This document shows positions 2,255 through 46,068 of a stretch of DNA of 64,000 bases, in pieces. The position numbers and the translations under genes were made by a program. Location: NCBI GenBank assembly GCA_024679565.1, contig JAIBDD010000004.1:1-64000 (forward strand), in the 5' to 3' direction. The stretch is from Bacteroidota bacterium (GTDB lineage: Bacteria > Bacteroidota > Bacteroidia > NS11-12g > UBA9320). Under the pieces are notes generated by a model. The model was not told where the DNA came from. It made no database searches and was given only the letters and a program-made list of their open reading frames with translations. Every line of letters begins with the position of its first letter. Position 1 is the first letter of the stretch.

Positions 2255-3490
2255 TTACTTTTTCTTTTTTCGCTTTTTGGGCTTTTTCAACAAGTCATTG
2301 TCGCTCATTAAACTTTTCCAATCAGCGTGTACGTCTCTTGAGAAATCGATTGTATCGGTGTACGTTTTTAAATCGATTTTTTGAACAGGCAACGGATCCC
2401 CTAAAAAAGATTCAATATCCTCTAATAAGGTTTGTTCTTCTGAGCTGCAGAATGACAGTGCAGAACCCTTGGCTGTGCCTCGCCCAGTTCGACCTACTCT
2501 ATGCACATAGTTTTCCGCTAACTCAGGTAAGTCATAATTTATAACAATATCAACTCCTGGGATATCAATTCCTCGTGCGCTAATATCTGTAGCGATGAGT
2601 AATTTTACCTTCCCACTTTTAAAATCGCGCATTGTAGCGGTGCGTTCTTCGTCCGATTTATCACTGTGAATCGTTTGTGCTTCTATTTCAACGCGTTCCA
2701 TTGCTTTTTTAACGCGCTCAGCACGAACCTTGGTGCGTACAAAACACAGCGTTTTGCTTTCAGAATAGTCGTTTATCACACGTTCCAAAAAGAATCGTTT
2801 GTCGTCCATTTCGACGTGAACCAAAGAATGGGTAACATTTTTCGATACTGGGTTTTTGGGAGATACCTGAATCCTGATCGGATTCTGCACTATCGAATAG
2901 GCAAGTTTTTTAATTCGTGGATTGATTGTGGCAGAGAAAAACAAGGTTTGGCGTTTTTTAGGAATAAAACGCAATAAGTCTTGAATGTCTTTTATAAAAC
3001 CCAAATCAAGCATATGGTCAGCTTCGTCTAAAACTAAAATCTTCAAATCTTCGAGTTTTAAATATCCTTGACTGCGTAAGTCAAATAGCCTTCCAGGTGT
3101 AGCAACAACCACGTCAATGCCTTGAGTGAGTTTTTCAATTTGGTCGTCCTGACTTACCCCTCCGTGGATGCACAAAACCGAAATACCTAAATCTTTGGTG
3201 AAGTCCAAAAATACTTGAGTAATCTGTTCAGCTAGCTCATGAGTTGGAGCCATAACAGCGCAGATAACACCACCGGTTTGAGCTTTTTTGGGAAGTTTAA
3301 GGATGTTCTGCAAAACCGGGATAACGAATGCAGCTGTTTTGCCAGTGCCAGTTTGAGCAATCGCCAGTACATCTTCTCTACGCAGAATGGCAGGGATAGA
3401 TTTGAACTGAATATCTGTTGGGCGTTTAAACCCTTTTTCAAGAATGTTGTGTTTTAACTTGTCAGATATACGATAATCCTCAAATTTCAT
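2255..3490 (-). CDS. DEAD-box RNA helicase (RhlE-like)
   Basis: AQTGTGKT, DEAD, SAT, HRVGRTGR motifs and a K-rich tail. Confidence 0.95.
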   Translation of the reverse strand: MKFEDYRISDKLKHNILEKGFKRPTDIQFKSIPAILRREDVLAIAQTGTGKTAAFVIPVLQNILKLPKKAQTGGVICAVMAPTHELAEQITQVFLDFTKDLGISVLCIHGGVSQDDQIEKLTQGIDVVVATPGRLFDLRSQGYLKLEDLKILVLDEADHMLDLGFIKDIQDLLRFIPKKRQTLFFSATINPRIKKLAYSIVQNPIRIQVSPKNPVSKNVTHSLVHVEMDDKRFFLERVINDYSESKTLCFVRTKVRAERVKKAMERVEIEAQTIHSDKSDEERTATMRDFKSGKVKLLIATDISARGIDIPGVDIVINYDLPELAENYVHRVGRTGRGTAKGSALSFCSSEEQTLLEDIESFLGDPLPVQKIDLKTYTDTIDFSRDVHADWKSLMSDNDLLKKPKKRKKKK

Positions 3491-3494
3491 GATG

Positions 3495-3502
3495 CAAAGT
3501 TA
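3495..3502 (-). promoter_or_regulatory. Bacteroidota -7 element TAACTTTG, 4 nt upstream of the helicase ATG
   Basis: Minus strand reads TAACTTTG-CATC-ATG. Confidence 0.5.
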
Positions 3503-3506
3503 CTGT

Positions 3507-3926
3507 TTAAGGATGAGCAGACACCCACACTTCTCCATCTTCGAAAAATTCCTTTTTCCAAATAGGTACAGATTCTTTTAATGTATCTATAGCAAATTGA
3601 CATGCACTGAATGCTGCACCACGATGAGCGGCGCCTACGGCAATAATTACGGGAATATCGCCAATGGCTAATGTGCCAATTCTGTGATGAATGGCTATGG
3701 CCGAAATTTCAAATTGTTCTAGTGCTTTGCCGGCAATCTTGTCCATTTCTTTCATCGCCATAGATTCGTAGCATTCAAAATGTAATTGGTGTACTGTTCG
3801 ACCATCGGTTGCGTTGCGAACTGTTCCTATAAATATACATTCTGCACCGTTACTATTGCCTGAAGCAAAATCCCTACAAGTACCTATTTCTAATGGTTCG
3901 GCTGATAAATGAATATTTTTTTTCAT
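3507..3926 (-). CDS. moaE: Molybdopterin synthase catalytic subunit MoaE
   Basis: FIGTVRNATDGRTVHQLHFECYESMA, HRIGTLAIGD, AAHRGAAFSACQFAIDTLKESVPIWKKE. Confidence 0.93.
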   Translation of the reverse strand: MKKNIHLSAEPLEIGTCRDFASGNSNGAECIFIGTVRNATDGRTVHQLHFECYESMAMKEMDKIAGKALEQFEISAIAIHHRIGTLAIGDIPVIIAVGAAHRGAAFSACQFAIDTLKESVPIWKKEFFEDGEVWVSAHP

Positions 3927-4046
3927 TTTTTATTGGTGTCGTACAACAAAACAGATTTGGGTACGTTAGTTGTACTGATATAGATAAAAAGTGATAACAT
4001 TATTCTTAATTTATTTGGTACGTCAGTACTTTTCGGCACGCTAAAA

Positions 4047-4283
4047 TTAGCCTCCACTAACTGGTGGAATTAACGCCACTACATCTTGATTTTTTAGAAC
4101 GTCATCATCGTTCGCATATTCTTCGTTTACTGCGAAAGCCAGCGCATTTAGTTTTTTAAGTTCAGGGAACTCTTTAAATATGTTTTCTCGAAAAGATTTA
4201 ACAGACGGATTTGTGGGTAACGGAAAGTCTAATTCCCTCTTGCCAATAATATCGCGTGCCGCACCAAATATCAGTACCTTCAT
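4047..4283 (-). CDS. moaD: MoaD/ThiS ubiquitin-like sulfur carrier
   Basis: Small protein ending in VALIPPVSGG (C-terminal Gly-Gly). Confidence 0.9.
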   Translation of the reverse strand: MKVLIFGAARDIIGKRELDFPLPTNPSVKSFRENIFKEFPELKKLNALAFAVNEEYANDDDVLKNQDVVALIPPVSGG

Positions 4284-5014
4284 TATATCAGTAATCTATA
4301 AAATATTCGTAGAGAAGCAAAGATAACAAGTACCGCGGTAAGTCTTTTAACACGTATTTGGGTTAAGATATTAATGTTCACTCTTGACCCAATTAGTCCG
4401 CCTACACCAACGGCCAACAGTAGCGGAACCAATACCGACCATTCAATCGTTATAGAGACAGCATAAGATTGTCCTGCTAATCCGGCAAGAGAGTTTACCA
4501 AGATGAAAAAACTAGAAGTGGCCGCAATTACTCGGGCACTATCCCATTTGATGAGATACAACAATGGGGCGAGAAAAATACCACCGCCTATTCCCACCAA
4601 CCCAGACACGAAACCAATGATGCCGCCTATTACAAGATTAAGGGCTACGCTGGATGATTTGGGGTTACTTGTATTGTGAGGTTGTTTAATCATCAATAAT
4701 CCAGATACAAGTAAACAACTGGCTAAAAGAATGAAGAATGACTGATGAGGTAGTTCAATGCTGCCTCCCAAAAAGGCCAATGGAACACTGGTGATGACCA
4801 AAGGAAGTGCCTTCTTGACATTTAACAGCTTATGTATTATAAAGACAGCTGTTCCACCACTAACGACAACTACATTACAGCAAAGGGCAATAAACCTTAA
4901 TTGAGAAGGAGGGAGGTCCGTAAATGATAGGATCGCGATGTACCCTGAACCACCACCAAAACCTACAGAAGCGTATAGAATTGCAATGAGGAAAAAGAGA
5001 ATTGCGTTTCCCAT
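4283..5014 (-). CDS. TauE/SafE family sulfite exporter-type membrane protein
   Basis: Polytopic; GGIIGFVSGLVGIGGGIFLAPLLYLI repeat typical of TauE/SafE. Confidence 0.9.
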   Translation of the reverse strand: MGNAILFFLIAILYASVGFGGGSGYIAILSFTDLPPSQLRFIALCCNVVVVSGGTAVFIIHKLLNVKKALPLVITSVPLAFLGGSIELPHQSFFILLASCLLVSGLLMIKQPHNTSNPKSSSVALNLVIGGIIGFVSGLVGIGGGIFLAPLLYLIKWDSARVIAATSSFFILVNSLAGLAGQSYAVSITIEWSVLVPLLLAVGVGGLIGSRVNINILTQIRVKRLTAVLVIFASLRIFYRLLI

Positions 5015-5145
5015 TAGTTATCTCGCTTCTCAAAAGTTTCGTTTCTCTTAGACTTGACGCGTTCAACAATCAACCCGATAATGAGGATTGCAGCGATAAG
5101 AAAAAACAGTGATTCTAGAAACAAAATTATTGAAGTGAAATTCAA
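5014..5145 (-). CDS. 43-aa single-TM microprotein (LNFTSIILFLESLFFLIAAILIIGLIVERVKSKRNETFEKRDN), not in the ORF track
   Basis: TTG start one nt after the ybjQ-like stop; TAA overlaps the tauE ATG by one base (TAATG); hydrophobic segment then basic tail. Confidence 0.5.
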   Translation of the reverse strand: MNFTSIILFLESLFFLIAAILIIGLIVERVKSKRNETFEKRDN

Positions 5146-5146
5146 G

Positions 5147-5461
5147 TTATTTAAACTTTACAGCCGTACCATAGGCAAGTATCTCTGCAGTTCCTTGCAT
5201 AATCATGGCAGTGGTGAGTCTTACGTTAACAATCGCATCTGCACCAAGTCGCTGTGCATCTTGAGTCATTCTTTGGATGGCTTGTTCTCTACTTTCTGCT
5301 TGTAGTTTTGTATACTCGTTAATTTCACCACCAACAATATTCTTTAAACCTGCAAAGATATCTCGGCCGATGTTTCGAGCGCGTACAGTGCTTCCTCTAG
5401 CAACACCAAGAATTTCAGCAATATCTTTATTAGGGACGGTTTCGGTTGTTGTAAGTATCAT
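5147..5461 (-). CDS. YbjQ family (heavy-metal-binding-like) protein
   Basis: VARGSTVRARNIGRDIFAGLKNIVGGEINEYTKLQAESREQAIQRM...GADAIVNVRLTTA. Confidence 0.9.
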   Translation of the reverse strand: MILTTTETVPNKDIAEILGVARGSTVRARNIGRDIFAGLKNIVGGEINEYTKLQAESREQAIQRMTQDAQRLGADAIVNVRLTTAMIMQGTAEILAYGTAVKFK

Positions 5462-33735: not shown

Positions 33736-36141
33736 CTATTGCATTGGAGGTGCACTTTTTTCAAATCCTTTTTGGGCTTTTGCAGGTTTATGCAGGAAAA
33801 TGAAATCTCCATCATCGTCATGGTCGCCAAAACCGCCATAACGTGGGGTTGTTGGTGTTTTACTATCGGTGGCAATACTCATTAACTGCAAGTTGTCTGT
33901 GAAATCGTCAAAAGTGAGAATATTGCCTTTTTTAGCACCTTTTGTACTTAGAGTTTCGATAAACTTAATGGCAAACTTACTTTCGTCAGGGACGTACTCT
34001 TCACCACCGCTTGTTATAAACAACCGAGATTTGATTTTTGACTTCATTTCGATGAATTTCTCTGGACTTTCACGAATAAAATTCAAATCGGATTCAGAAT
34101 AGTTTCGTACTTCCGTTTTGTTAAACGCGGTGCCACCGAAACATACGTCGAAAACCAGCATGATATGGTTGCAGGAATACGTTGCATTGAAATAATCGCG
34201 GATATCTGTGAATTTTAAATAGCTTCGTAAGCTACCATCGCGTTCAGAATTTTTGGCGACGATAAAGCCACCTTTACCCGGCTTGTAGTGACCATGTCCG
34301 GCGAAAAACACGAATAGCTGATCTTTTGGCGCATAAGTGATACTTTCTGTATAATGCTCAATGATACTATCCATTTGTTCAACCGTTTGATTAACCTTGA
34401 TGTCCACCTTAAAACCATATACAGACTGTAGTAATTTTCCAATTTTCTCAACGTCTTTAATCGGATTTGCAAGTTGTTCCCACGAATCATATTCGTTTGT
34501 TGCGAAAAGAAGGGCGTAGTTGGTTTGAGAGGTATTAACATTAACAGGGTCAGCTAGTTTTTTACTGCTTTTATTGATTATGAATGAATCTGTAGCAATG
34601 TTTCCATTCCTGTCTTTGGCCGATATGACCAACTTGGTCCATGTGCTGGTAAAATTTTGATCTAGGTTGAATTTGCCGTTTTGTGTAAAGGCAACACTTA
34701 CCCCATTCACCATTATTTCAGCAATGCCGCTTTCATCAAGCGCTTGCCCTCCTACATTCTTTGATATCGTTACTACTTTTGTTTTACCCCCGCGTTTTCC
34801 ATCTGAACTAATCACGTTTGGAATGTATATCATTGGAGGTGTTGTGTCTGTCAAGTTCGTCGTTGCATTGACAAACGTAAGTGGAAAGTCAACCCCCGAG
34901 GAGTAACTTTTTAAGTCAAATTGAAGATTTCCTGAAGACATATTGCCATACATATACCCTTCTAAACTTTTTGAGGTTACATAGGCCAAAGACGCTGTAG
35001 TATCTTTATGAAAACTGTTTTGCCAATTGGTAGCAGCGCTACCAGAAATGCCTTCTGTTAGGTACGAGGTAAATAGACTCATGTCGGATTTGGGCATCTT
35101 GACCCTTCCGTCTGATACTAAAAACCCAATGCTTTCTGCAACATATTCATGATCGTTTTCGCGCTGATCAGCAGCATATTGGTCAATGAGACTCGAGTTA
35201 ACGGCGTCAAATAACAACAGTTTTTTTGAAGCAGACATCGAAGAGAGCCATGCCAAAATTTGTTCATTATCGATGGTGTCGTTTCCTACTAAAAGTTTGT
35301 CATCTTTGGTATATCCAGTGTAGTACAATATGAAACAATCGCCCGGTTTTGAATTCACAATAACGTTTTCGAATGCAGACTTAACTGAATCTTTTTTATC
35401 CTGATTTAATACAAAAATGTGAGATTGATCAAAAATCCGTTGGGCTCGCTCACCAACTATTTCAGCCATAATTTTGGCATCTTCTGTAGCGTGCCGATAA
35501 CCATTTGGGTTGGTACCGTTTGTGCCAATACTGATAAAATAAAGGTCGTTGCTTCGCTGTTTACTCTGGATTTTTCTTCGTGCTGCCAATTTCATTTTGT
35601 CAAACATGTCCTCCATCACGTCGTTGTCGAGCCAGTCATTTAGATTACTGATCATCTCTAAGTCATCCATTTCTAGCTCAGGGTCGTTGATGTGTTTGAG
35701 GTTAATGTTCCAGCTAGTCATATACCGTTGTAACGAGGTATTATAGTCCTCATGTTTATAGTAATTATAAGCACTCCATCTGTGGTAGTTTCTCAATAAG
35801 CCATACCTAACGTAATTGCCTTTATGCTCAAGGCCGATAGCTGTGTCAAACGCTAGGCCAGCCTGTAAATATTGCTCTTGTTTTTCTAAACCTTGACCTT
35901 TGGTGAAGTATTCATTTCCTAAAGCCTTGTATTTAAAGTGCTTGTTCCATTGACTGGTTAAATGTGTTTTTTCGCGGTTAACTTGTTCAACCTCCCAGCC
36001 GTTTTCGATAAAAAAGTCGAAATCAGCAATAATACCCTCATCGAAAACAGAAGTAGCACCTGCATTTTCTAGCGCTTTCAAATAGTATTTTCTGGCTTTT
36101 GTGTACTTTCTTAGTAATGTTAACGAGTGACCGTAATTCAT
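33736..36141 (-). CDS. TPR / degenerate caspase-like / Ig-like / caspase-like (C14) protein
   Basis: Intact dyad FVFFAGHGH and MLVFDVCFGG near the C-terminus; degenerate FILYYTGY and LLLFDAVNSS upstream; DTTPP Ig-like segment between. Confidence 0.85.
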   Translation of the reverse strand: MNYGHSLTLLRKYTKARKYYLKALENAGATSVFDEGIIADFDFFIENGWEVEQVNREKTHLTSQWNKHFKYKALGNEYFTKGQGLEKQEQYLQAGLAFDTAIGLEHKGNYVRYGLLRNYHRWSAYNYYKHEDYNTSLQRYMTSWNINLKHINDPELEMDDLEMISNLNDWLDNDVMEDMFDKMKLAARRKIQSKQRSNDLYFISIGTNGTNPNGYRHATEDAKIMAEIVGERAQRIFDQSHIFVLNQDKKDSVKSAFENVIVNSKPGDCFILYYTGYTKDDKLLVGNDTIDNEQILAWLSSMSASKKLLLFDAVNSSLIDQYAADQRENDHEYVAESIGFLVSDGRVKMPKSDMSLFTSYLTEGISGSAATNWQNSFHKDTTASLAYVTSKSLEGYMYGNMSSGNLQFDLKSYSSGVDFPLTFVNATTNLTDTTPPMIYIPNVISSDGKRGGKTKVVTISKNVGGQALDESGIAEIMVNGVSVAFTQNGKFNLDQNFTSTWTKLVISAKDRNGNIATDSFIINKSSKKLADPVNVNTSQTNYALLFATNEYDSWEQLANPIKDVEKIGKLLQSVYGFKVDIKVNQTVEQMDSIIEHYTESITYAPKDQLFVFFAGHGHYKPGKGGFIVAKNSERDGSLRSYLKFTDIRDYFNATYSCNHIMLVFDVCFGGTAFNKTEVRNYSESDLNFIRESPEKFIEMKSKIKSRLFITSGGEEYVPDESKFAIKFIETLSTKGAKKGNILTFDDFTDNLQLMSIATDSKTPTTPRYGGFGDHDDDGDFIFLHKPAKAQKGFEKSAPPMQ

Positions 36142-36938
36142 GGCGTAAGTGGCATCATTACTATCAACATATGGGCTTTTTCAGTGTGTTCTTCTGAAGC
36201 TTTAAATCGGCCTAATTTTATTAAAGTCCAACCGTACATACCATGGCCAAAAGCATATTCAGACATGTTGTCTTTCACAAAGGCAAACTCAGGTAGCGCT
36301 TTCATCAAGTTTTCCGATGTCAGGTACATCAAACCCAATTGCCAATGGATATTATAGTTTGTGGAGTCCTCCTTAAGTAAATCGATATATACTTTTTCGG
36401 ATTCTGAATATTGTTTTTTGGTTTGGAAAACCCACGCTCGAATCAATTCAAAATCTCGGTATTCTTGTCTGTAATTGTATTTGGTTGTTAATGCGGACCA
36501 TTGGTCAACCAACTTGATTGCACTGTCAAGATTACCTTGATTAGCCACTGCATAGATGTTTGTTTGAACCTGTGAGAAATCAAATGCTGTCACTTTTAAA
36601 TATCGACCGTATGCCGACTCCCAATTCTCCCAATCGGCATCAGTGACAATTTCTTTGTACAACTTTGATAATAAATTGCCGTCGTCTTCATTGGTAGGTG
36701 TAAAATTAATCACCCAAGTGGCATATGATTCGTCAATTCTAAACTTGCGGCCCATGTATTTATGCGGGTAGTCTATTACATAACGCAAGAAGGCCTTAAC
36801 ATCTGTCGTTTTTGAAATTAGCATTGCTTCCCACATATTTAAACCTGCAAAAGCGCCAGAGTCTATTTTTTCCGTCATGTCACTTTCGTCCGGGTCATAC
36901 AGGGTTTTGGCTGTATTGATAATAATGTCGCGCATCAT
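36138..36938 (-). CDS. TPR-repeat protein, apparent upstream part of the caspase-like protein
   Basis: YSESEKVYIDLLKEDSTNYNIHWQLGLMYLTSENLMKALPEFAFVKD; ATGA overlap with the next ORF and TPR sequence continuing in the other frame. Confidence 0.7.
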   Translation of the reverse strand: MMRDIIINTAKTLYDPDESDMTEKIDSGAFAGLNMWEAMLISKTTDVKAFLRYVIDYPHKYMGRKFRIDESYATWVINFTPTNEDDGNLLSKLYKEIVTDADWENWESAYGRYLKVTAFDFSQVQTNIYAVANQGNLDSAIKLVDQWSALTTKYNYRQEYRDFELIRAWVFQTKKQYSESEKVYIDLLKEDSTNYNIHWQLGLMYLTSENLMKALPEFAFVKDNMSEYAFGHGMYGWTLIKLGRFKASEEHTEKAHMLIVMMPLTP

Positions 36939-36974
36939 TTCAATCAGTACGTCCTCACTCGTTTCTATAGATAT

Positions 36975-37799
36975 TTATTGCGCAACCTTATAGCTATAAA
37001 GAGGTAAATTTTGGTCGCCTAAAAATGGAATATGAAATCGGGTTAGCTGTTGGATTAAACCATCATAAGCATCTGGATTGGCTCCAATTTCCATATAATT
37101 GAGATCACCTATTTGAGGTGTAAAACCACTAGCTTTTCCGTCATCGCTCATCACCATGTACCATTGAGATCGACCTTGATCTATCGACACAACGGTGGTT
37201 TGGCCCAGAGCTTCAATATACCGTTCTGGTTTACTTGCATCGTATATCGCTACAAACCATCCAGATTGGTCTATTCTTATCGAGTCACGTATCCCTAAAT
37301 CCATCGTGAACCAGGTCGTATCTCCCGAAGTTTTATCTATAGAAGAAACAGGGTATCGAGAATATTCTCTTTCTGTATTCCAACTTTCGAAGCCATAAAA
37401 ACTTTGATACTTTCTTGCTGAATCTTCATAAAACGAGACTAGTTTTATAGCAGCCTGCGCTTCGGCAATATGACCCCCTCTTTGGTAGTTTAATGCAGCG
37501 AGAAAAAAGTACTGTGACGCTGCGCCATAGTACGTCTCAGATACGAAAAATCTTGCGTAAAGGGCAAATACTTCGCCGATAAACTTCCTGTCTTGCCCCT
37601 CTTCGAGTTCTTTCTCTTCAACTACAGCTCCTAACAAGAGCGAAAAAACGTCATCATATTTCCCCTTTTCAATTAGCTTTAGTGCTTTGTCGTAAGACTT
37701 CTTGGCTTTTTTAGAATTTTGCGCACTGCTTTGGCTTGCCGTACAAATAAAGATGAGTACAACTATAGAATATGTAAATAACTGCTTCAGTAGAACCAT
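36975..37799 (-). CDS. Secreted uncharacterised protein, first ORF of the caspase-like locus
   Basis: Signal peptide MVLLKQLFTYSIVVLIFICTASQSSAQ; TACATTTG at 37817-37824 (minus) supports start 37799. Confidence 0.75.
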   Translation of the reverse strand: MVLLKQLFTYSIVVLIFICTASQSSAQNSKKAKKSYDKALKLIEKGKYDDVFSLLLGAVVEEKELEEGQDRKFIGEVFALYARFFVSETYYGAASQYFFLAALNYQRGGHIAEAQAAIKLVSFYEDSARKYQSFYGFESWNTEREYSRYPVSSIDKTSGDTTWFTMDLGIRDSIRIDQSGWFVAIYDASKPERYIEALGQTTVVSIDQGRSQWYMVMSDDGKASGFTPQIGDLNYMEIGANPDAYDGLIQQLTRFHIPFLGDQNLPLYSYKVAQ

Positions 37800-37816
37800 T
37801 TCTAGAGATCTTAAGC

Positions 37817-37824
37817 CAAATGTA
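37817..37824 (-). promoter_or_regulatory. -7 element TACATTTG upstream of the caspase locus
   Basis: Matches TAnnTTTG. Confidence 0.4.
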
Positions 37825-37887
37825 TTAAATATATATGGAACTGAGCGGATTGGTAAATGATAGTGGTCATAATACAAGTGTGCGGAG

Positions 37888-37895
37888 TATTTTTG
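37888..37895 (+). promoter_or_regulatory. -7 element TATTTTTG, 4 nt before the ATG of the 37900 CDS
   Basis: TATTTTTG-CTGT-ATG. Confidence 0.5.
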
Positions 37896-37899
37896 CTGT

Positions 37900-38370
37900 A
37901 TGGATTTAAAACCGTTTTATGATGTTGCAGAAGACGCAATTAAAACGTTGGGTGTAGACCCAGAGACAACACGATGTGAAGACCCAGGACAGTGGATTGT
38001 TACAAGAGAACCAATTGAAATTTTCATTGACATTTGGCAACCACAAGAAGCAAATCAATGGGAGTATTTTAAGGAGGATGAGCCAACTGCTATTTTTCAA
38101 GTCGTAGCGCCAGTGTGTTATTTGCCAGATAATGAAGCAGATAAAGCCAAATTTATGGAAGAAGTACTCTACATTAACCACCATATGTTTTATGGTAGCT
38201 TTACGGTTAACATGGAAGAGTCAATGGCGGCCATTGGATATAAGAGATTGCTTGAAGGAGCCAATCGTGTTGAGATGATAGAGCCGATAGAGAGCATAGG
38301 ATTTTATGCAGAAAATTTATCAAACTATCTTTCAAAAAAATACAATCTGAAAAAAATTGAAAAAAATTAA
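37900..38370 (+). CDS. Uncharacterised 156-aa cytosolic protein (YbjN/type III chaperone-like fold possible)
   Basis: Length and pattern only (QWIVTREPIEIFIDIWQ...LYINHHMFYGSF). Confidence 0.7.
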   Translation: MDLKPFYDVAEDAIKTLGVDPETTRCEDPGQWIVTREPIEIFIDIWQPQEANQWEYFKEDEPTAIFQVVAPVCYLPDNEADKAKFMEEVLYINHHMFYGSFTVNMEESMAAIGYKRLLEGANRVEMIEPIESIGFYAENLSNYLSKKYNLKKIEKN

Positions 38371-38377
38371 GGTTTAA

Positions 38378-38406
38378 GGCAACCAAACGCGGAAACTTCT
38401 CATCTA
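38378..38406 (+). promoter_or_regulatory. Candidate ECF promoter GGCAACC-N15-TCATCTA upstream of the sigma factor gene
   Basis: AAC-type -35 and a -10-like element at ECF-compatible spacing, upstream of 38438. Confidence 0.4.
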
Positions 38407-38437
38407 AGAAGAAAAGCGAGAAGAATGATGTCTTTAA

Positions 38438-38980
38438 ATGGCAGCGGACAAACGAGATACAGAATGGAAATTGGTAAAGCAATCTTTGCAAGGAGACCAT
38501 TCTGCTTTCGAGCTGTTGTATAAGTCATTATCACCTAAAATGTACGCCGTAAGTTTAAGATACACGCACCAAGATCAGGACGCACAAGATGTATTGCAAG
38601 AAGCGTTTATCCGGATTTATAAAAATTTAAAGCAATTTAAATTTAACGGCTCATTTGAGGGCTGGTGCAGAAGGATTGTTACAAATACAGCAATAGAAGC
38701 ATTGCGTAAAAAAGGTAGAATGAAGGAAAATTCTACTGAGGTGCTTCCTGATTTGCCTGTGGATCCTAAAAGTTTTGAGAAGTTAAAATATGATGACTTG
38801 ATGAAACTTGTTCGTGCACTTCCAGATGGATATCGCAGTGTGTTTAACCTGTATGTGATTGATGGTTTTAGCCATAGAGAAATTGGCGAAATGTTAGGCG
38901 TTACAGAAAGCACAAGTAAAACACAATTGTATAAAGCCAGATTGGCTTTGCAGAAAAAAGTACTAGAAACGATTGAGTAA
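38438..38980 (+). CDS. ECF-family RNA polymerase sigma-70 factor
   Basis: HQDQDAQDVLQEAFIRIYKNLKQF, FEGWCRRIVTNTAIEALRKK, HREIGEMLGVTESTSKTQLYKARLALQKK. Confidence 0.96.
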   Translation: MAADKRDTEWKLVKQSLQGDHSAFELLYKSLSPKMYAVSLRYTHQDQDAQDVLQEAFIRIYKNLKQFKFNGSFEGWCRRIVTNTAIEALRKKGRMKENSTEVLPDLPVDPKSFEKLKYDDLMKLVRALPDGYRSVFNLYVIDGFSHREIGEMLGVTESTSKTQLYKARLALQKKVLETIE

Positions 38981-40265
38981 AGAAAATAACATATCGCAAT
39001 TTGATTCACTGTTCAAACAAACGTTTGAGGGGGCAAGTTCGAATGTGCCTCCAGGTGTTTGGGAGGGGGTTTCTTCTGCTACTGCAGGCGCGGCAGGTGC
39101 TTCAAGTGTGTCCGTATTGTCGAAACTGTTCGGTCTTAAAGGCGCAGCCATTTTAGGGTCGGTAGCCCTAATTGTTACTTCTACTGTTTTACTAACGAAG
39201 GAGTCAAACCCTCAACCCGAAGAAATAACGCCAAATACGCAAACTGAAATAGTGGTTGAATCCGAAACGGATTTGGATAAATCTGCAAATGAGATTACGT
39301 CAATTGACGAGTCTGTAAGTGAGACGAATCAAAATAACACGGTCGATTTAGCTAAAGCGGATGGTGAGATAACAATATCGAACACTCAGGTTGTATCCGA
39401 TATAAAAACGGATGGTATAGGACAGCCAAGTAATGCATTTAAAGATGTTTCAAAGTCGACTGCACATAATTCAGGAAATAGTGAACCAACAAAATCAACT
39501 GGAGTACTGGAATTGTCCGTATCTTCTGAGTCAGTATGTTTGGGTCAAAAAGTAGATGTTTCGGTACTTGATGGGAATACATTGAAAGACATTTCTTGGT
39601 TAGTAGATGGCAAACCAGTGGTTTCGAACAGAAAGTATATGAGCTTTTTGTTTGATAAAGCAGGAGGCCATTCCATTGAACTGAATGCTATAAATTCAAT
39701 TGGAGAGAATTTAACCACTACAAAAAATATTAAGGTTGTTGAGGCAGATGCTTCGTTTAAAGTCAGCCAAAAAGAGGGGGTGATTTACTTGACATCATTG
39801 AAGCCAGTTAAGGCCAACCAGTGGTATGTCAATCAAGTACTCGTAAAGGAAAATCAGAATTCAACTTCATTTGAGTCTGAATCAGAAAAAAACACAATTG
39901 TACATGTGGCAACCAACCTAAATGGTTGCAGTGATACCGCAAAGCAAGAGGTTGTTAAGGTGGCGAACTGTGCTGGAGACTTGAAAGTGCCAAATATATT
40001 TACACCGTACCATCAAGATGGATTTAACGATGACTTTGTCATCGACATGCCACAAGTTAAAGGATATAGGTTAACAGTATACAACTTAAAGGACGGTAAG
40101 GTCGTCTTTGATACAGAAAGCCAGAAAGAAAACTGGAATGGTAAGTACGACAATATAGGAGCAATGGTTCCTGTTGGTTACTACATTTATCGATTGGTAT
40201 ATAACTGTAACGGAAAAACTACCACAAAACAGGACAGAGTAATGGTTTCAGATGCAAAAAATTAA
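38973..40265 (+). CDS. Single-pass anti-sigma-like protein with Ig/PKD-like region and CHU_C (gliding motility-associated) C-terminal domain
   Basis: N-terminal FDSLFKQTFEGASSNVPPGVWEGV, one TM (AAILGSVALIVTSTVLL), C-terminal VPNIFTPYHQDGFNDDFVIDMPQVKGYRLTVYN; TTG start overlapping the sigma gene. Confidence 0.75.
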   Translation: MSKENNISQFDSLFKQTFEGASSNVPPGVWEGVSSATAGAAGASSVSVLSKLFGLKGAAILGSVALIVTSTVLLTKESNPQPEEITPNTQTEIVVESETDLDKSANEITSIDESVSETNQNNTVDLAKADGEITISNTQVVSDIKTDGIGQPSNAFKDVSKSTAHNSGNSEPTKSTGVLELSVSSESVCLGQKVDVSVLDGNTLKDISWLVDGKPVVSNRKYMSFLFDKAGGHSIELNAINSIGENLTTTKNIKVVEADASFKVSQKEGVIYLTSLKPVKANQWYVNQVLVKENQNSTSFESESEKNTIVHVATNLNGCSDTAKQEVVKVANCAGDLKVPNIFTPYHQDGFNDDFVIDMPQVKGYRLTVYNLKDGKVVFDTESQKENWNGKYDNIGAMVPVGYYIYRLVYNCNGKTTTKQDRVMVSDAKN

Positions 40266-40347
40266 TTTGAAAAACCCAATAAATAACGATAATATAGCAA
40301 GCTCGAATTTGTCGGGCTTGCGTTTACATAACCCGATATTGAATTTT

Positions 40348-43300
40348 ATGAAAATGACAAAGAACAGAACTAAGTTTTTGATGTATTTGTTTTTCCCGAT
40401 GCTATTGCTTTTGGGACAGGTAAATGCAGCTAACGCTCAATGTAAGCCTAGCTATACAGCTGGTAATGAGTGTGAAAATGTAGCCATTAACTTTAAAGCT
40501 AATGCGCCGGGATTCTCAACCTACGATTGGGAATACAAAGAAAAAGGTTCAGGAACTGTAATTGGGAGCTCGTCAGATCGAGACCCTTCTTTCCCGTTTC
40601 CTAAAGCTGGTACTTACGTTATCACCCTGAAAGCTTCAGGAGTTGCTGGTAATTGTACCGAATCTTTTGAGATTGTAATTAAGCCTAGTCCAAAGGCAAT
40701 TCCGTTTTTAATCACGCCGAATCGGCAGTGTTTTAAAGGGAATATGTTCTGCTTAATTGATAGCAGTACGCCAGCACCAGGTAGCCAAATTGTGCGTAGA
40801 ACAGTCCTGTTCTCGGATGGTCAGCGTTACGATAAAGTCAATCCAACATATGGAGACACTATCTGTCACACAATCATCGATCCTAAAGGTGGTTGGTTTA
40901 ACATGAAGATGGAGCTTGAAGATAAAAACGGATGTGTTACTGAAGCATATTTTAATGATTTCATTCAAGTATTCCCTAGACTAAATGTTCGCTTGAGTAC
41001 TAACTCACCAACAAAGTGTGATTCTACAAAAGCAACCATCACAAACCTTACATATAACGATTGGAAAAATAACAATGAGACGACTATCGGGTTGAAAGAC
41101 ATCGCTCAATTTGTTTTTGATTTCGGTGGTGGAGATCCTAAAGTAGTTATTGGTGATTCTGTTACAAACACCAAATACTGGACAGGGGAAGCTTTTGATG
41201 GTATTACCGAACACTGGTATAGAACACATGGTACTTTTAATGCAACTCTTTCGGTAACGTCACGTTTTGGCTGTTCTGAGACTTTTACCTATAAAGGTGC
41301 TGCAACCAATATTAAACTAAGACCTCAAATTATTGCGGATAAAGATTCGGCTTGTACGAGTGATCCTGAAACATGTTTCAGTGTGTCTACGGGGCCAATC
41401 CCAGGAGCACAGTTCTTATGGACATTTGGTGATCCTCCGTCAGGTAACTTGAACTTCGATGATAAAACATGGACACCATGCCACTCTTATGGTGGTGGTC
41501 CTTGGATGATTTCGTTACGAATCGTTTCAGGTCCTTGTGATATCATGATTTTTGATACAATTACTAAAGTTGGTCCTTCATCTACCATAGAAGTTCCATT
41601 TGTACGTGTTCTTGAAAAAGAGAAGTACCAATGTGAAATTAGAGACAGTGTTCATTTTGTAAACAACTCAAGTTTTTATCATGATGATCCAAATTATTGG
41701 GATGAAGATTCATTCTTTTATTTCTACCCAAAATCATTCAGAATTGTTAAACACAGAGTTACAGGTGTAGATAGTATTTATACCTATAGTAATGTAAAAA
41801 CAAACACAGATACATTTAAAGCGAAATATGCTGTTACTGAGATTCTGTATCAAGATGGTGCTAAGATTTACTTTGATACCAATCTCGATTCGTTTGTTGT
41901 TGTGATAGGTAATTCTACTGGTGGAAATGACACGACTAAATTTGGTCGAGATATGGGAGGCCTTTATTCAAAACGTCGTTATGTATTTAACTTCAACGAG
42001 GATACAAGAGCCGGTGATCAAACCGCAATTCCTGTAGACCCAGCAATTCGAAGAAAAGACCACGTCTATCGTCTTTGGACATTAGGAGACAATTTTGCTC
42101 CTCCATGTACTACAGACACGAAAGCAAATAAAAACGTTAACCTAAACTGTAATTTCACCTTAGACTCATTACCAGTGCACTGGTATACACCTTGGGATGA
42201 CATTTATAGATACCGGAACAATGGTCAGTTTTATACCAACCCTGCACCTCGAACATTGTTTAGCCGTCATGCACGACAATGTTACCAAGTTCAGGTTTAT
42301 CCAGCTGATACGGCAATAGTGCCACAAGAGGTTGTTTTATTTGTGCCTAAAGACACAACAAAAACATTCTACATACCGTACACTGATTCAATGGGTGTTG
42401 CAAGAACTGACACTATTGAAATTTTGGGATGGAAGAAATATCCAGAGTTCCAACAAAGAAATAATTACCGCCTAAAAATTTGGAAGCCAGAGGCTGTCTA
42501 TAAAGGTAAGGTGATCAGTACAATAATTTGGGAAGACCATGATTATTACATTCCAGCTGGTGTCACCATACGACTTAAAAATCTTCAAAATGGCACGGTT
42601 ACCACTGTAACAGGTCCTAAGACCCATACTCTTGAAAAAGACTTTCAGTTTGAAGTTGATGAAGGGGATTCTATCGTATCACTTCCAGAAATGATTATTA
42701 ACCCAGAGCGGGTTGTCATTGCTGGAGCAAGTAATATTTTAATTGATACCATTATTAATGGAGTTGAAACTACGGTTCAACGTTCTGTTGTGCTGGTTGA
42801 TTCTATATATCATAGAAACTATTTCTATAACAATACCGCATCTTGTAATTCAGTTACTTTATTCCATAAAGACACTGTTCATCCATTTAAGTGTGAAAGC
42901 TCAAATAATATTTCGTTGGCGCTTATCCCGCCAAGTGCAAGAGGCTTGCGATGGGAGTCAGGTATTCCTTGTCCATTAGACGGAAATAAGTTGAATTATT
43001 ACCTAACGTTCAATATGGACGAAACGAAGCCAGGTTGTACACAACAATGGTTTGAAGTGAATTATGATTCACTTACCGGTCCTGATAACTGGATTAGTTA
43101 CAAAAGTGGTGGCGTATTAGCCCCACCGCCTCCAGGTTTGCCTATTCCATTCGTTTTGCCATATGATATAATTGGTCAGTGGGGAACGCAATTTGTAAAA
43201 GGATACTCTTCTGGAGAAATAGGAAGTGATCCAAGCAAGCGTCCAAATGGTTCGTTTACCATTGGTTTAGTTGTTGCTAACGGACCACCACAAACAGATA

Positions 43301-46068
43301 AAGACGGAAACCCAATTGCACCAGAGTGTACAGATACAGCTTGGTATAGTGACATGTTCCGTTACCAATACTTAGATGCTCAGTTCGACATCTTATTACC
43401 TCAAAATGATCCATTAGCACTTTGTGCCGGAGGAACTGCTTACTTCAGAATGTTAAATCCTGTTCAAGATAGTATTGCTGCCTTGAGATGGAACTGGGGT
43501 TATCCAGATCGTTTATCAGGTTACTATGAAGAATTCCAATATTTCCAAGAATACAAAGGTCCAGTTAAAGGACGTAACGATGAAGGGACGACTTGGAATC
43601 AAGGGAAAGATGTTTGGCTATATAACTATGTGGTGCGTCACAATCTAGATGATTTGTTAGGTGACGAAACCATTGATACTATTGTAACAAGAATTTATCG
43701 CGATTGGGACTACGAAGTGAATACGTATCAAGCGGATAAAATCCTAGTAGATATATTGAAGCAGTTGAATCTTGATATTAGAGATATTCCTGATGAGGAT
43801 TTTGCATTGATGTTAGGAGATGGAACAGTAGGTTGTATTGATACAACTGGCATTAGCGAATACTTCATCATTGGAAAGAAAGGTATTGACGAAAACGTTG
43901 TTTTCCATGATCAGTACAAGTATCAGTATACAAATTCAGGAATGACCGATTCTGTAATTATTGAAGAGGTATTCCACTTCAGGGATTCGTCGATTCAAGG
44001 TTTCGACACCTTGGTTGCCCCTTACGATTTAGTTGCTACAGATACAGTGTACAAACGTGGAGCGGTTATACCTGATGTATACAAGTTTACTTATCGTCAT
44101 CCAGAAGTTCGGTTGAATTTCTGTGATCCAACGAAGAAGGATACGTTCTGGGTGAATTCTAACGGACCAATGGTTCCAGGTATATTCTTGAATAACCGAG
44201 TAGGTTGTGAGAAGAGTGGCGCGAAACTGTTGAATGTTGGTTACCTCAATAAATTTGAGTTGTTAAACCAAGCGGTATGTAAAAACCAAGTACACGAATT
44301 GTACGACAGTATTCGATACTGGCAATATGGGGATGATATGTTCCCGAATGATTATCCAATTGATCCACGTAAGTTCTGGGAAGATCCAGTACGATATGCG
44401 AATGGTAAGTTGGAAATCAAATCAATTGATTGGAATTATGGTGATGGTGTTGATGACTTCAATAGATCGATTACTTTCTTCAACCAATATGATAGTGCAG
44501 GAGAATATGTTGTAGCAATCGCTACTAGAGATTCAATCGGATGTACCGATACGGCCTTTGTAACGGCTTTTGTTACAGGAGCACTTGCGAATTTCGAAAC
44601 CAACCAAGCGGTAGGTGGAGATCCTTGTGATGGTATCATTAACTTCTTTGACTCATCGATAGTATTTGATCCATGTCGTGGAAGAGATACTTGTCCAAAC
44701 GGTGTTTACGAACCATGTGATAGTGTTGTATGGTACGAGTGGGACTTTGGAGATGGTTCAACACGAAGTGTACTGAAAAACCCATCGCATGATTATACCT
44801 CTAGTGGATGGTTTACGATCAAATTAAAAATCTACACCTTATTAGGTTGTGAAGATTCAGTTGAGAAGCAAATATTCATTGAAGGACCTCAACCAAGGTT
44901 CGAGTTTGACGGAGGTAGCGTTTGGGGAGAAGATTCCATCATAATATGTGTGGGAGATTCGGTCCATCTGGCCAACACGAGTATCGATCCGATGTATAAC
45001 CCAAATTGGGTTCTATCTTGGGGTGATTCTTTAAACTCTACTTCATCAACTACTGACCCGAACAAGATATTATCTCACCAATACAACGATTCAGGTGTAT
45101 ACTATCTATTAATGTATATGGAAGATACCATAGAAGGATCTGCCAACAGATGTTTCAGAGTATTCCCAGATTCAAGTACGAAGGACGGTAAGATTCCAAG
45201 AAAGATTAAGGTAATTGTAAAACCAGTTGCCCCTGCTAAATTGGAAATTGCACCAGATACGGTTTGTCCTTACCAAGAAGTTGTATTTACAAGCAACTCG
45301 GATACCATCTATAAGTATTACCAATGGTCATTTGGCGATGGCGATACGGCAACACGAAACGACCCAGTTAATGTTGTAAGTCATAGCTATAAGGCTCCTG
45401 GTAGATACACGGTTGAATTAATACCTAATTACGATCTCCCTCCTGGTGATTTCGGGCCGCGTTGTCAAGATGTTGATACGGGTTATGTAACGGTAATTAA
45501 ACCAACAGCTGATTTCGATATAATCGATGTAGACAAACCAGATTTCTGTTTCACCAATACGTCAACCGGAGCGAAAACATACGAGTGGCAAATTGAGACG
45601 GAAACACGTGATACTACATACGAATACACAAGTGATATCAACGAGCAAATTTGCTACAACTGGGGAGAAACAGTGGGTACGTTTGCCATCTGTTTAATCG
45701 CTACGAATGAGGCAGGTTGTAAGGATACAATTTGTAAAACGATAGAGAACGACTTCTTTATTAAGTTTATCCCTTACAACGTATTTACTCCAGACGAAGA
45801 GGATGCATTAAACAATCAGTTTGTTGTCGATATTGAGGGATATGAAGAATTCCAAATCGACATCTACAACAGATGGGGTGAGCTTGTCTTTAAAACATCA
45901 GCGGAGAACAATGCACCGATCATTAATTGGGATGGCACAATTATGAACAAAGGGACGAAATGTCCTGCAGGAACGTACTTCTATGTAATCAACTACAAGT
46001 TGAAAAACAGACCAGAAAATGGTGAAGTAGGAGAACCAGTTAGCGGTACAGTTACCCTGATTCGATAA
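40348..46068 (+). CDS. Giant PKD-domain surface protein with T9SS type B (CHU_C) C-terminus
   Basis: Signal peptide at internal ATG 40348; WEWDFGDGSTRSVLKNPSHDY-type PKD motifs; C-terminal YNVFTPDEEDALNNQFVVDIEGYEEFQIDIYNRWGELVF. Confidence 0.9.
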   Translation: MKMTKNRTKFLMYLFFPMLLLLGQVNAANAQCKPSYTAGNECENVAINFKANAPGFSTYDWEYKEKGSGTVIGSSSDRDPSFPFPKAGTYVITLKASGVAGNCTESFEIVIKPSPKAIPFLITPNRQCFKGNMFCLIDSSTPAPGSQIVRRTVLFSDGQRYDKVNPTYGDTICHTIIDPKGGWFNMKMELEDKNGCVTEAYFNDFIQVFPRLNVRLSTNSPTKCDSTKATITNLTYNDWKNNNETTIGLKDIAQFVFDFGGGDPKVVIGDSVTNTKYWTGEAFDGITEHWYRTHGTFNATLSVTSRFGCSETFTYKGAATNIKLRPQIIADKDSACTSDPETCFSVSTGPIPGAQFLWTFGDPPSGNLNFDDKTWTPCHSYGGGPWMISLRIVSGPCDIMIFDTITKVGPSSTIEVPFVRVLEKEKYQCEIRDSVHFVNNSSFYHDDPNYWDEDSFFYFYPKSFRIVKHRVTGVDSIYTYSNVKTNTDTFKAKYAVTEILYQDGAKIYFDTNLDSFVVVIGNSTGGNDTTKFGRDMGGLYSKRRYVFNFNEDTRAGDQTAIPVDPAIRRKDHVYRLWTLGDNFAPPCTTDTKANKNVNLNCNFTLDSLPVHWYTPWDDIYRYRNNGQFYTNPAPRTLFSRHARQCYQVQVYPADTAIVPQEVVLFVPKDTTKTFYIPYTDSMGVARTDTIEILGWKKYPEFQQRNNYRLKIWKPEAVYKGKVISTIIWEDHDYYIPAGVTIRLKNLQNGTVTTVTGPKTHTLEKDFQFEVDEGDSIVSLPEMIINPERVVIAGASNILIDTIINGVETTVQRSVVLVDSIYHRNYFYNNTASCNSVTLFHKDTVHPFKCESSNNISLALIPPSARGLRWESGIPCPLDGNKLNYYLTFNMDETKPGCTQQWFEVNYDSLTGPDNWISYKSGGVLAPPPPGLPIPFVLPYDIIGQWGTQFVKGYSSGEIGSDPSKRPNGSFTIGLVVANGPPQTDKDGNPIAPECTDTAWYSDMFRYQYLDAQFDILLPQNDPLALCAGGTAYFRMLNPVQDSIAALRWNWGYPDRLSGYYEEFQYFQEYKGPVKGRNDEGTTWNQGKDVWLYNYVVRHNLDDLLGDETIDTIVTRIYRDWDYEVNTYQADKILVDILKQLNLDIRDIPDEDFALMLGDGTVGCIDTTGISEYFIIGKKGIDENVVFHDQYKYQYTNSGMTDSVIIEEVFHFRDSSIQGFDTLVAPYDLVATDTVYKRGAVIPDVYKFTYRHPEVRLNFCDPTKKDTFWVNSNGPMVPGIFLNNRVGCEKSGAKLLNVGYLNKFELLNQAVCKNQVHELYDSIRYWQYGDDMFPNDYPIDPRKFWEDPVRYANGKLEIKSIDWNYGDGVDDFNRSITFFNQYDSAGEYVVAIATRDSIGCTDTAFVTAFVTGALANFETNQAVGGDPCDGIINFFDSSIVFDPCRGRDTCPNGVYEPCDSVVWYEWDFGDGSTRSVLKNPSHDYTSSGWFTIKLKIYTLLGCEDSVEKQIFIEGPQPRFEFDGGSVWGEDSIIICVGDSVHLANTSIDPMYNPNWVLSWGDSLNSTSSTTDPNKILSHQYNDSGVYYLLMYMEDTIEGSANRCFRVFPDSSTKDGKIPRKIKVIVKPVAPAKLEIAPDTVCPYQEVVFTSNSDTIYKYYQWSFGDGDTATRNDPVNVVSHSYKAPGRYTVELIPNYDLPPGDFGPRCQDVDTGYVTVIKPTADFDIIDVDKPDFCFTNTSTGAKTYEWQIETETRDTTYEYTSDINEQICYNWGETVGTFAICLIATNEAGCKDTICKTIENDFFIKFIPYNVFTPDEEDALNNQFVVDIEGYEEFQIDIYNRWGELVFKTSAENNAPIINWDGTIMNKGTKCPAGTYFYVINYKLKNRPENGEVGEPVSGTVTLIR

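Follow-up and report, generated by a model that had tools for sequence, protein, structure and literature searches.

We describe here a bacterial gene in which a caspase domain without its catalytic pair stands ahead of an intact one in the same polypeptide. The gene, which encodes TPRs, a pseudo-caspase, an Ig-like domain and a caspase, is found in interrupted form on the minus strand (33736..37799; frame taken from six intact relatives) of a 64,000-nucleotide stretch of DNA from a Bacteroidota bacterium, hereafter the window. By analogy with known caspase-type pairs, we suggest that this secreted-type protein may combine both halves of a caspase heterodimer in a single chain, in which the dead unit serves the live one as an internal partner or regulator, and we put the probability of this reading at about one half.

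Structure and interruption of the gene

Window coordinates refer to its minus strand unless indicated. An earlier note on this DNA had described an ORF of 801 aa (33736-36141). This ORF is real, but it is the 3' part of a gene of ~1,390 aa, as alignment with relatives indicates, and its initial Met falls within a TPR. The 5' part is held by two more ORFs, a middle open stretch (36138-36974) and a first open stretch (36978-37916). The putative start ATG is at 37797-37799, inferred from the alignment, and the gene ends with a TAG at 33736-33738. The first open stretch is ended by an in-frame TAA (36975..36977) at a place where the intact orthologues have no stop, and a frameshift zone inside a TPR (36138..36180) is marked by the overlap of two stop-to-stop frames and by a change of frame in the orthologue alignment. 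In the six relatives with a complete contig (L027, L029, L030, L031, L032 and L033), the gene is a single open frame of 1360-1394 aa with, in order, a signal-peptide-like start, TPRs, the upstream unit, the Ig-like domain and the caspase; the nearest of them is L027, from an uncultured Bacteroidia MAG (CAJQIC010000020.1), with 84% identity across the 801 aa. A programmed stop or frameshift was rejected because these intact relatives carry one plain frame.

The window's putative signal peptide, MVLLKQLFTYSIVVLIFICTASQSSAQ (37719..37799), was recognized by eye, and the orthologues start with similarly hydrophobic residues. A TPR-rich helical region (35557..36420) precedes the pseudo-caspase; Pfam TPR matches in the window pieces and in L027 agree with the TPRs noticed earlier ahead of the caspase units. 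A conserved beta-rich stretch (36978-37700) that follows the first TPR region and precedes the later TPRs was matched by no Pfam family.

Among the 42 genes of one relative (G001) that can be compared with the window, the caspase gene alone shows a frame-changing match; three other flagged genes have single-frame matches, with stops that are perhaps 5' of the true start codon. That a single gene has two lesions speaks for true decay, and the window copy is probably a pseudogene or affected by assembly errors; assembly error or strain mixture may be the alternative source of the lesions. On the question of pseudogene status, dN/dS is uninformative because dS is saturated. Given the nonsense codon and the frameshift, the full tandem protein is probably not made by the window's genome. 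The earlier description of a pseudo-protease/protease pair in one secreted-type polypeptide is supported for the intact relatives, and probably does not apply to the interrupted gene of the window. The tandem gene is also split in another relative, G004. Because G004 has two more long genes broken up over different frames, and a third match that shifts frame at its extreme end, this split may be a sequencing error. The window's own genome has three further C14 matches, at C17:17397-20204 and C49:5746-6489, so that a loss of caspases there would be incomplete.

The live unit and the dead unit

The downstream unit (33739..34521) is a caspase with an intact His-Cys pair, as identified by PF00656 and by orthologue alignment. 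It matches Pfam Peptidase_C14 (PF00656) over aa 541-694 with an E of 6.6e-20 and 72.2 bits against a cut-off of 21.4, and with a score above the curated cut-off and both catalytic residues in place it is a member of Peptidase_C14. The canonical residues reported earlier are at the positions given for them: the catalytic histidine is His616 in VFFAGHGH (34294..34296) and the catalytic cysteine Cys667 in LVFDVCFGG (34141..34143). Both are invariant across 8 orthologues, and both are kept in 12/12 complete downstream units and in 16/16 stand-alone C14 units.

By contrast, the aligned catalytic His and Cys are both missing from all 14 upstream units of the tandem homologues, which come from three families. 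The earlier note had correctly seen that the pair is absent here, but the replacements that it named, Tyr/Gly for His and Asn/Ser for Cys, are one residue off; in the alignment, Tyr277 (35311..35313) takes the place of the His and Val314 (35200..35202), with Asn-Ser after it, that of the Cys. In the thirteen upstream units that were tabulated, the His column is occupied by Y, F, K, Q, P, S or A and the Cys column by one of V, A, E, P, N and F; the fourteenth, L028, reads YYTGYT and DAANST. In four upstream units a Cys lies one or two columns off, and the His column is without His in all four. As the replaced residues are not fixed, any role of the dead unit resides in its fold or surface.

Between the window and L027, dN is 0.096 for the upstream unit, 0.054 for the Ig-like domain and 0.123 for the downstream unit, with dS saturated. 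Judged by these values, the dead unit is constrained as tightly as the live unit, under purifying selection that resembles that on the active unit. This bears on the idea of the upstream unit as a decaying remnant that persists by chance beside a caspase. The fast, unfixed changes in its active site and the breakage of the whole gene in both the window and G004 would fit such decay; nevertheless, a complete unit in 14 homologues of three families and an upstream dN as low as that of the active unit (dS being saturated) make it very unlikely. Homologues in which the upstream unit is absent or unrelated, which the earlier note had said would speak against its reading, did not turn up; every tandem homologue found retains the unit, without the catalytic pair.

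The upstream unit is a caspase domain homologue

The upstream unit (34867..35556) has the complete p20 plus p10 length of a caspase domain and was assigned to C14 as a degenerate member by hhalign, by PF00656 matches in homologues and by AlphaFold/Foldseek. As a single sequence, the window's own unit has no match in Pfam, and the assignment rests on its homologues, among which PF00656 is detected in 6/14 (lowest E 1.2e-7). When eight upstream units are combined into an HMM, it picks up intact C14 domains at the C-terminus of WD40 proteins with E values from 1e-21 to 1e-27; the matches span almost the entire HMM, and the targets come from other families. In hhalign, a profile of 14 upstream units matches a profile of 7 intact stand-alone C14 domains of WD40 proteins with a probability of 99.8 and an E of 1.9e-30 over 222 columns, end to end and with the p10 part included. 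The match between the upstream unit and the protein's own downstream unit is far weaker (E 6.8e-6 with eight sequences on each side). The description of the upstream unit as a degenerate caspase, which needed homologues as proof, is borne out by these profiles.

Structure prediction, which had been proposed as a check of the fold, gave a concordant result. AlphaFold modeled the window's upstream unit with low-to-moderate confidence (pTM 0.67, mean pLDDT 60, the p20 part better) from an input of six rows, half of them active caspases, which favors a caspase fold and makes the model not independent of the profile matches. In a Foldseek search of the PDB with this model, the best 50 matches are all clan CD structures, among them GSU0716, MALT1, caspases, metacaspases and legumain, with a best E of 9.7e-7 and a TM of about 0.5-0.6. 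We conclude that the upstream unit is homologous to caspase (Peptidase_C14) domains; without the His-Cys pair, it is by its sequence not a peptidase. As a C14 p20 in which the catalytic pair is substituted, it is a pseudo-orthocaspase by definition.

The Ig-like spacer

The stretch between the two units (34570..34851) was recognized by hhalign as an Ig-like domain, as had been claimed for it: the spacers of seven orthologues align with the Ig repeats of another caspase protein, L098, with a probability of 98 and an E of 1.5e-13. Searched singly against Pfam, the spacers give matches to Big_13, HYR and Glucodextran_B, all under the cut-off, and the tandem protein does not follow the paracaspase domain rule of PMC6426788, which calls for a Pfam Ig, Ig_2 or Ig_3 domain before the p20. 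In most members, this Ig domain, about 94 aa long, stands between the units; in L099 and L100, there is no comparable Ig stretch and about 35-40 residues lie between the two units. The Ig domain may hold the units apart, which would count against a dimer contact.

Distribution and origin of the tandem

The tandem is present in 12/109 genomes of the order and, elsewhere in the class, in 2 of another family. Of two scans of viral contigs, one turned up a single usable relative and the other none. The upstream units form one clade, with a support of 98/94 in one tree and 100/99 in another, and neighboring genes are conserved across families. These two observations argue for the tandem being old. 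Beside the caspase gene, the window carries a divergent small gene, an ECF sigma factor and large PKD-like genes (37900-46068, plus strand) in an order kept in several relatives; on the other side, G009, G005 and G051 have paaD/paaC-like genes, so named by eye, in place of mfd.

The downstream units sit in a subfamily together with stand-alone WD40- or Ig-linked caspases, which excludes the upstream units with a support of 100/100. The upstream units group with the WD40-type subfamily, but not firmly (87/78). A recent internal duplication was rejected because upstream and downstream units come from separate C14 subfamilies, the downstream one forming a clade without the upstream units even with its stand-alone members included. 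A single clade of the upstream units and the downstream subfamily has a p-AU of 0.18, and an ancient duplication as the possible origin of the two units is thus not rejected by the trees. The live subfamily is also found without a dead partner, in the WD40 or Ig proteins L098, L112, L113 and L075; thus, a built-in partner is not always required.

Related layouts exist in other proteins. L036 (5623-6369), L040 and L079 are two-unit proteins of 557-610 aa, outside the TPR family, in which a degenerate C14-like unit is followed by a live caspase of the downstream subfamily. L035 (4070-6703, plus strand) has three C14 units, the first with the His and without the Cys, the second without both and the third with both, and L158/L159 (L159 at 2814-5378, minus strand) have a similar three-unit order. 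The dead units of all these proteins are too divergent to be placed in the tree. C14 genes also occur in series: G248:C96:329000-345000 (L114) has seven in succession on one strand, and large ORFs in G374:C1:215457-242134 give at least five C14 matches over 27 kb, apparently a WD40-caspase array.

Discussion

Caspases and the paracaspase MALT1 act as dimers that are joined at the p10 strand (PMC4357240). Gingipain has an inactivated unit directly ahead of its active one, and the two make up a covalently linked dimer that resembles caspase dimers; it is a secreted protein of Bacteroidota, and as in the tandem both units lie in a single chain (PMC4626109). However, gingipain R belongs to a different peptidase family (C25, for which our Pfam scans gave no match), has no TPR and has its IgSF domain after the units rather than between them. 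FLIP(L), which is without the catalytic pair, pairs with caspase-8 into an enzyme with a single active site (PMC7586951), so that a pseudo-caspase supports or restricts a live caspase much as we propose here, except that two separate proteins are involved. In caspase-16, the caspase domain at the N-terminus is dead and that at the C-terminus live, and the gene, like that of the tandem, is broken in some species, namely human and mouse; by contrast to the tandem units, which come from two subfamilies, the caspase-16 domains arose by exon duplication within one caspase (PMC12198278), and caspase-16 is without TPR or Ig. By analogy with gingipain subdomain A, FLIP(L)/caspase-8 and caspase-16, we consider it most likely that the dead unit would be a covalent pseudo-heterodimer partner or regulator.

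In the mechanism that we propose, a C14 domain that is catalytically dead is followed in the same chain by a live one, in most cases with an Ig-like spacer between them. The TPR part would act as a sensor or scaffold, the dead unit would pack onto the live unit, serving it as an in-chain dimer partner or as an allosteric regulator, and a change in the state of the TPRs would be relayed by the dead unit to the active site of the live unit. For the 607-aa two-unit part of L027, run as a single sequence, AlphaFold gave a pLDDT of 30.4, too low for use of the model. A role in anti-phage defense is unsupported, the L027 product having no PADLOC match to known defense systems at an E of 1e-5.

There are two rival roles for the dead unit. 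It might be a substrate- or ligand-binding or anchoring module with a peptide-binding groove, and form no caspase-type dimer. We find this alternative rather unlikely, although conserved core residues beside an unfixed replacement of the catalytic pair, an Ig spacer that parts the units in most members and a live subfamily that elsewhere manages without such a partner all speak for it; against it, the p10 part is retained over its full length, and in caspases it is this part that has the dimer strand (PMC4357240). Alternatively, the dead unit could be an inhibitory prodomain that is lost by autoprocessing, the active unit being latent before cleavage. Its position N-terminal of the live unit recalls the self-inhibitory N-termini of several clan CD peptidases (PMC4357240), but the sequence gives no sign of processing, and we regard this possibility as improbable.

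Among the bacterial caspase homologues, or orthocaspases, of Peptidase_C14, the downstream unit is a clear member and the upstream unit a homologue by profile; the tandem differs from them in that each chain has two units, of which the first is devoid of the catalytic pair. Pseudo-orthocaspases likewise have a C14 p20 with His and Cys replaced, and some have TPRs; in the part of the survey available (PMC6426788), they are mainly from Alphaproteobacteria and Cyanobacteria, with 10/1078 in Bacteroidetes, and multiple p20 domains are mentioned in "a few proteins", with no dead/live tandem described there. Within an open-access library, papers retrieved for tandem caspase domains were PMC6426788, the one on caspase-16 and a coral survey.

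MALT1 resembles the tandem in that an Ig-like domain adjoins its C14 domain, and it is a frequent PDB match of the upstream-unit profile and model. This paracaspase has one active C14 domain; to our knowledge, its chain includes neither TPRs nor a dead C14 partner.

More tentatively than for the protein itself, we speculate that Bacteroidota have a recurrent class of caspase pseudo-heterodimers, assembled more than once, in which the C14 units that precede a live terminal caspase of one subfamily lose the catalytic pair. As proposed, this class covers the TPR type, the short two-unit type and the three-unit type, and it would be a counterpart of gingipain A/B and of caspase-16 that was reached independently. 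With a dead partner beside a live caspase in one chain, the switching-on of a bacterial caspase becomes testable through a single protein and simple deletions. The layout parallels that of the gingipains and of mammalian caspase-16, and would show that the same solution evolved repeatedly.
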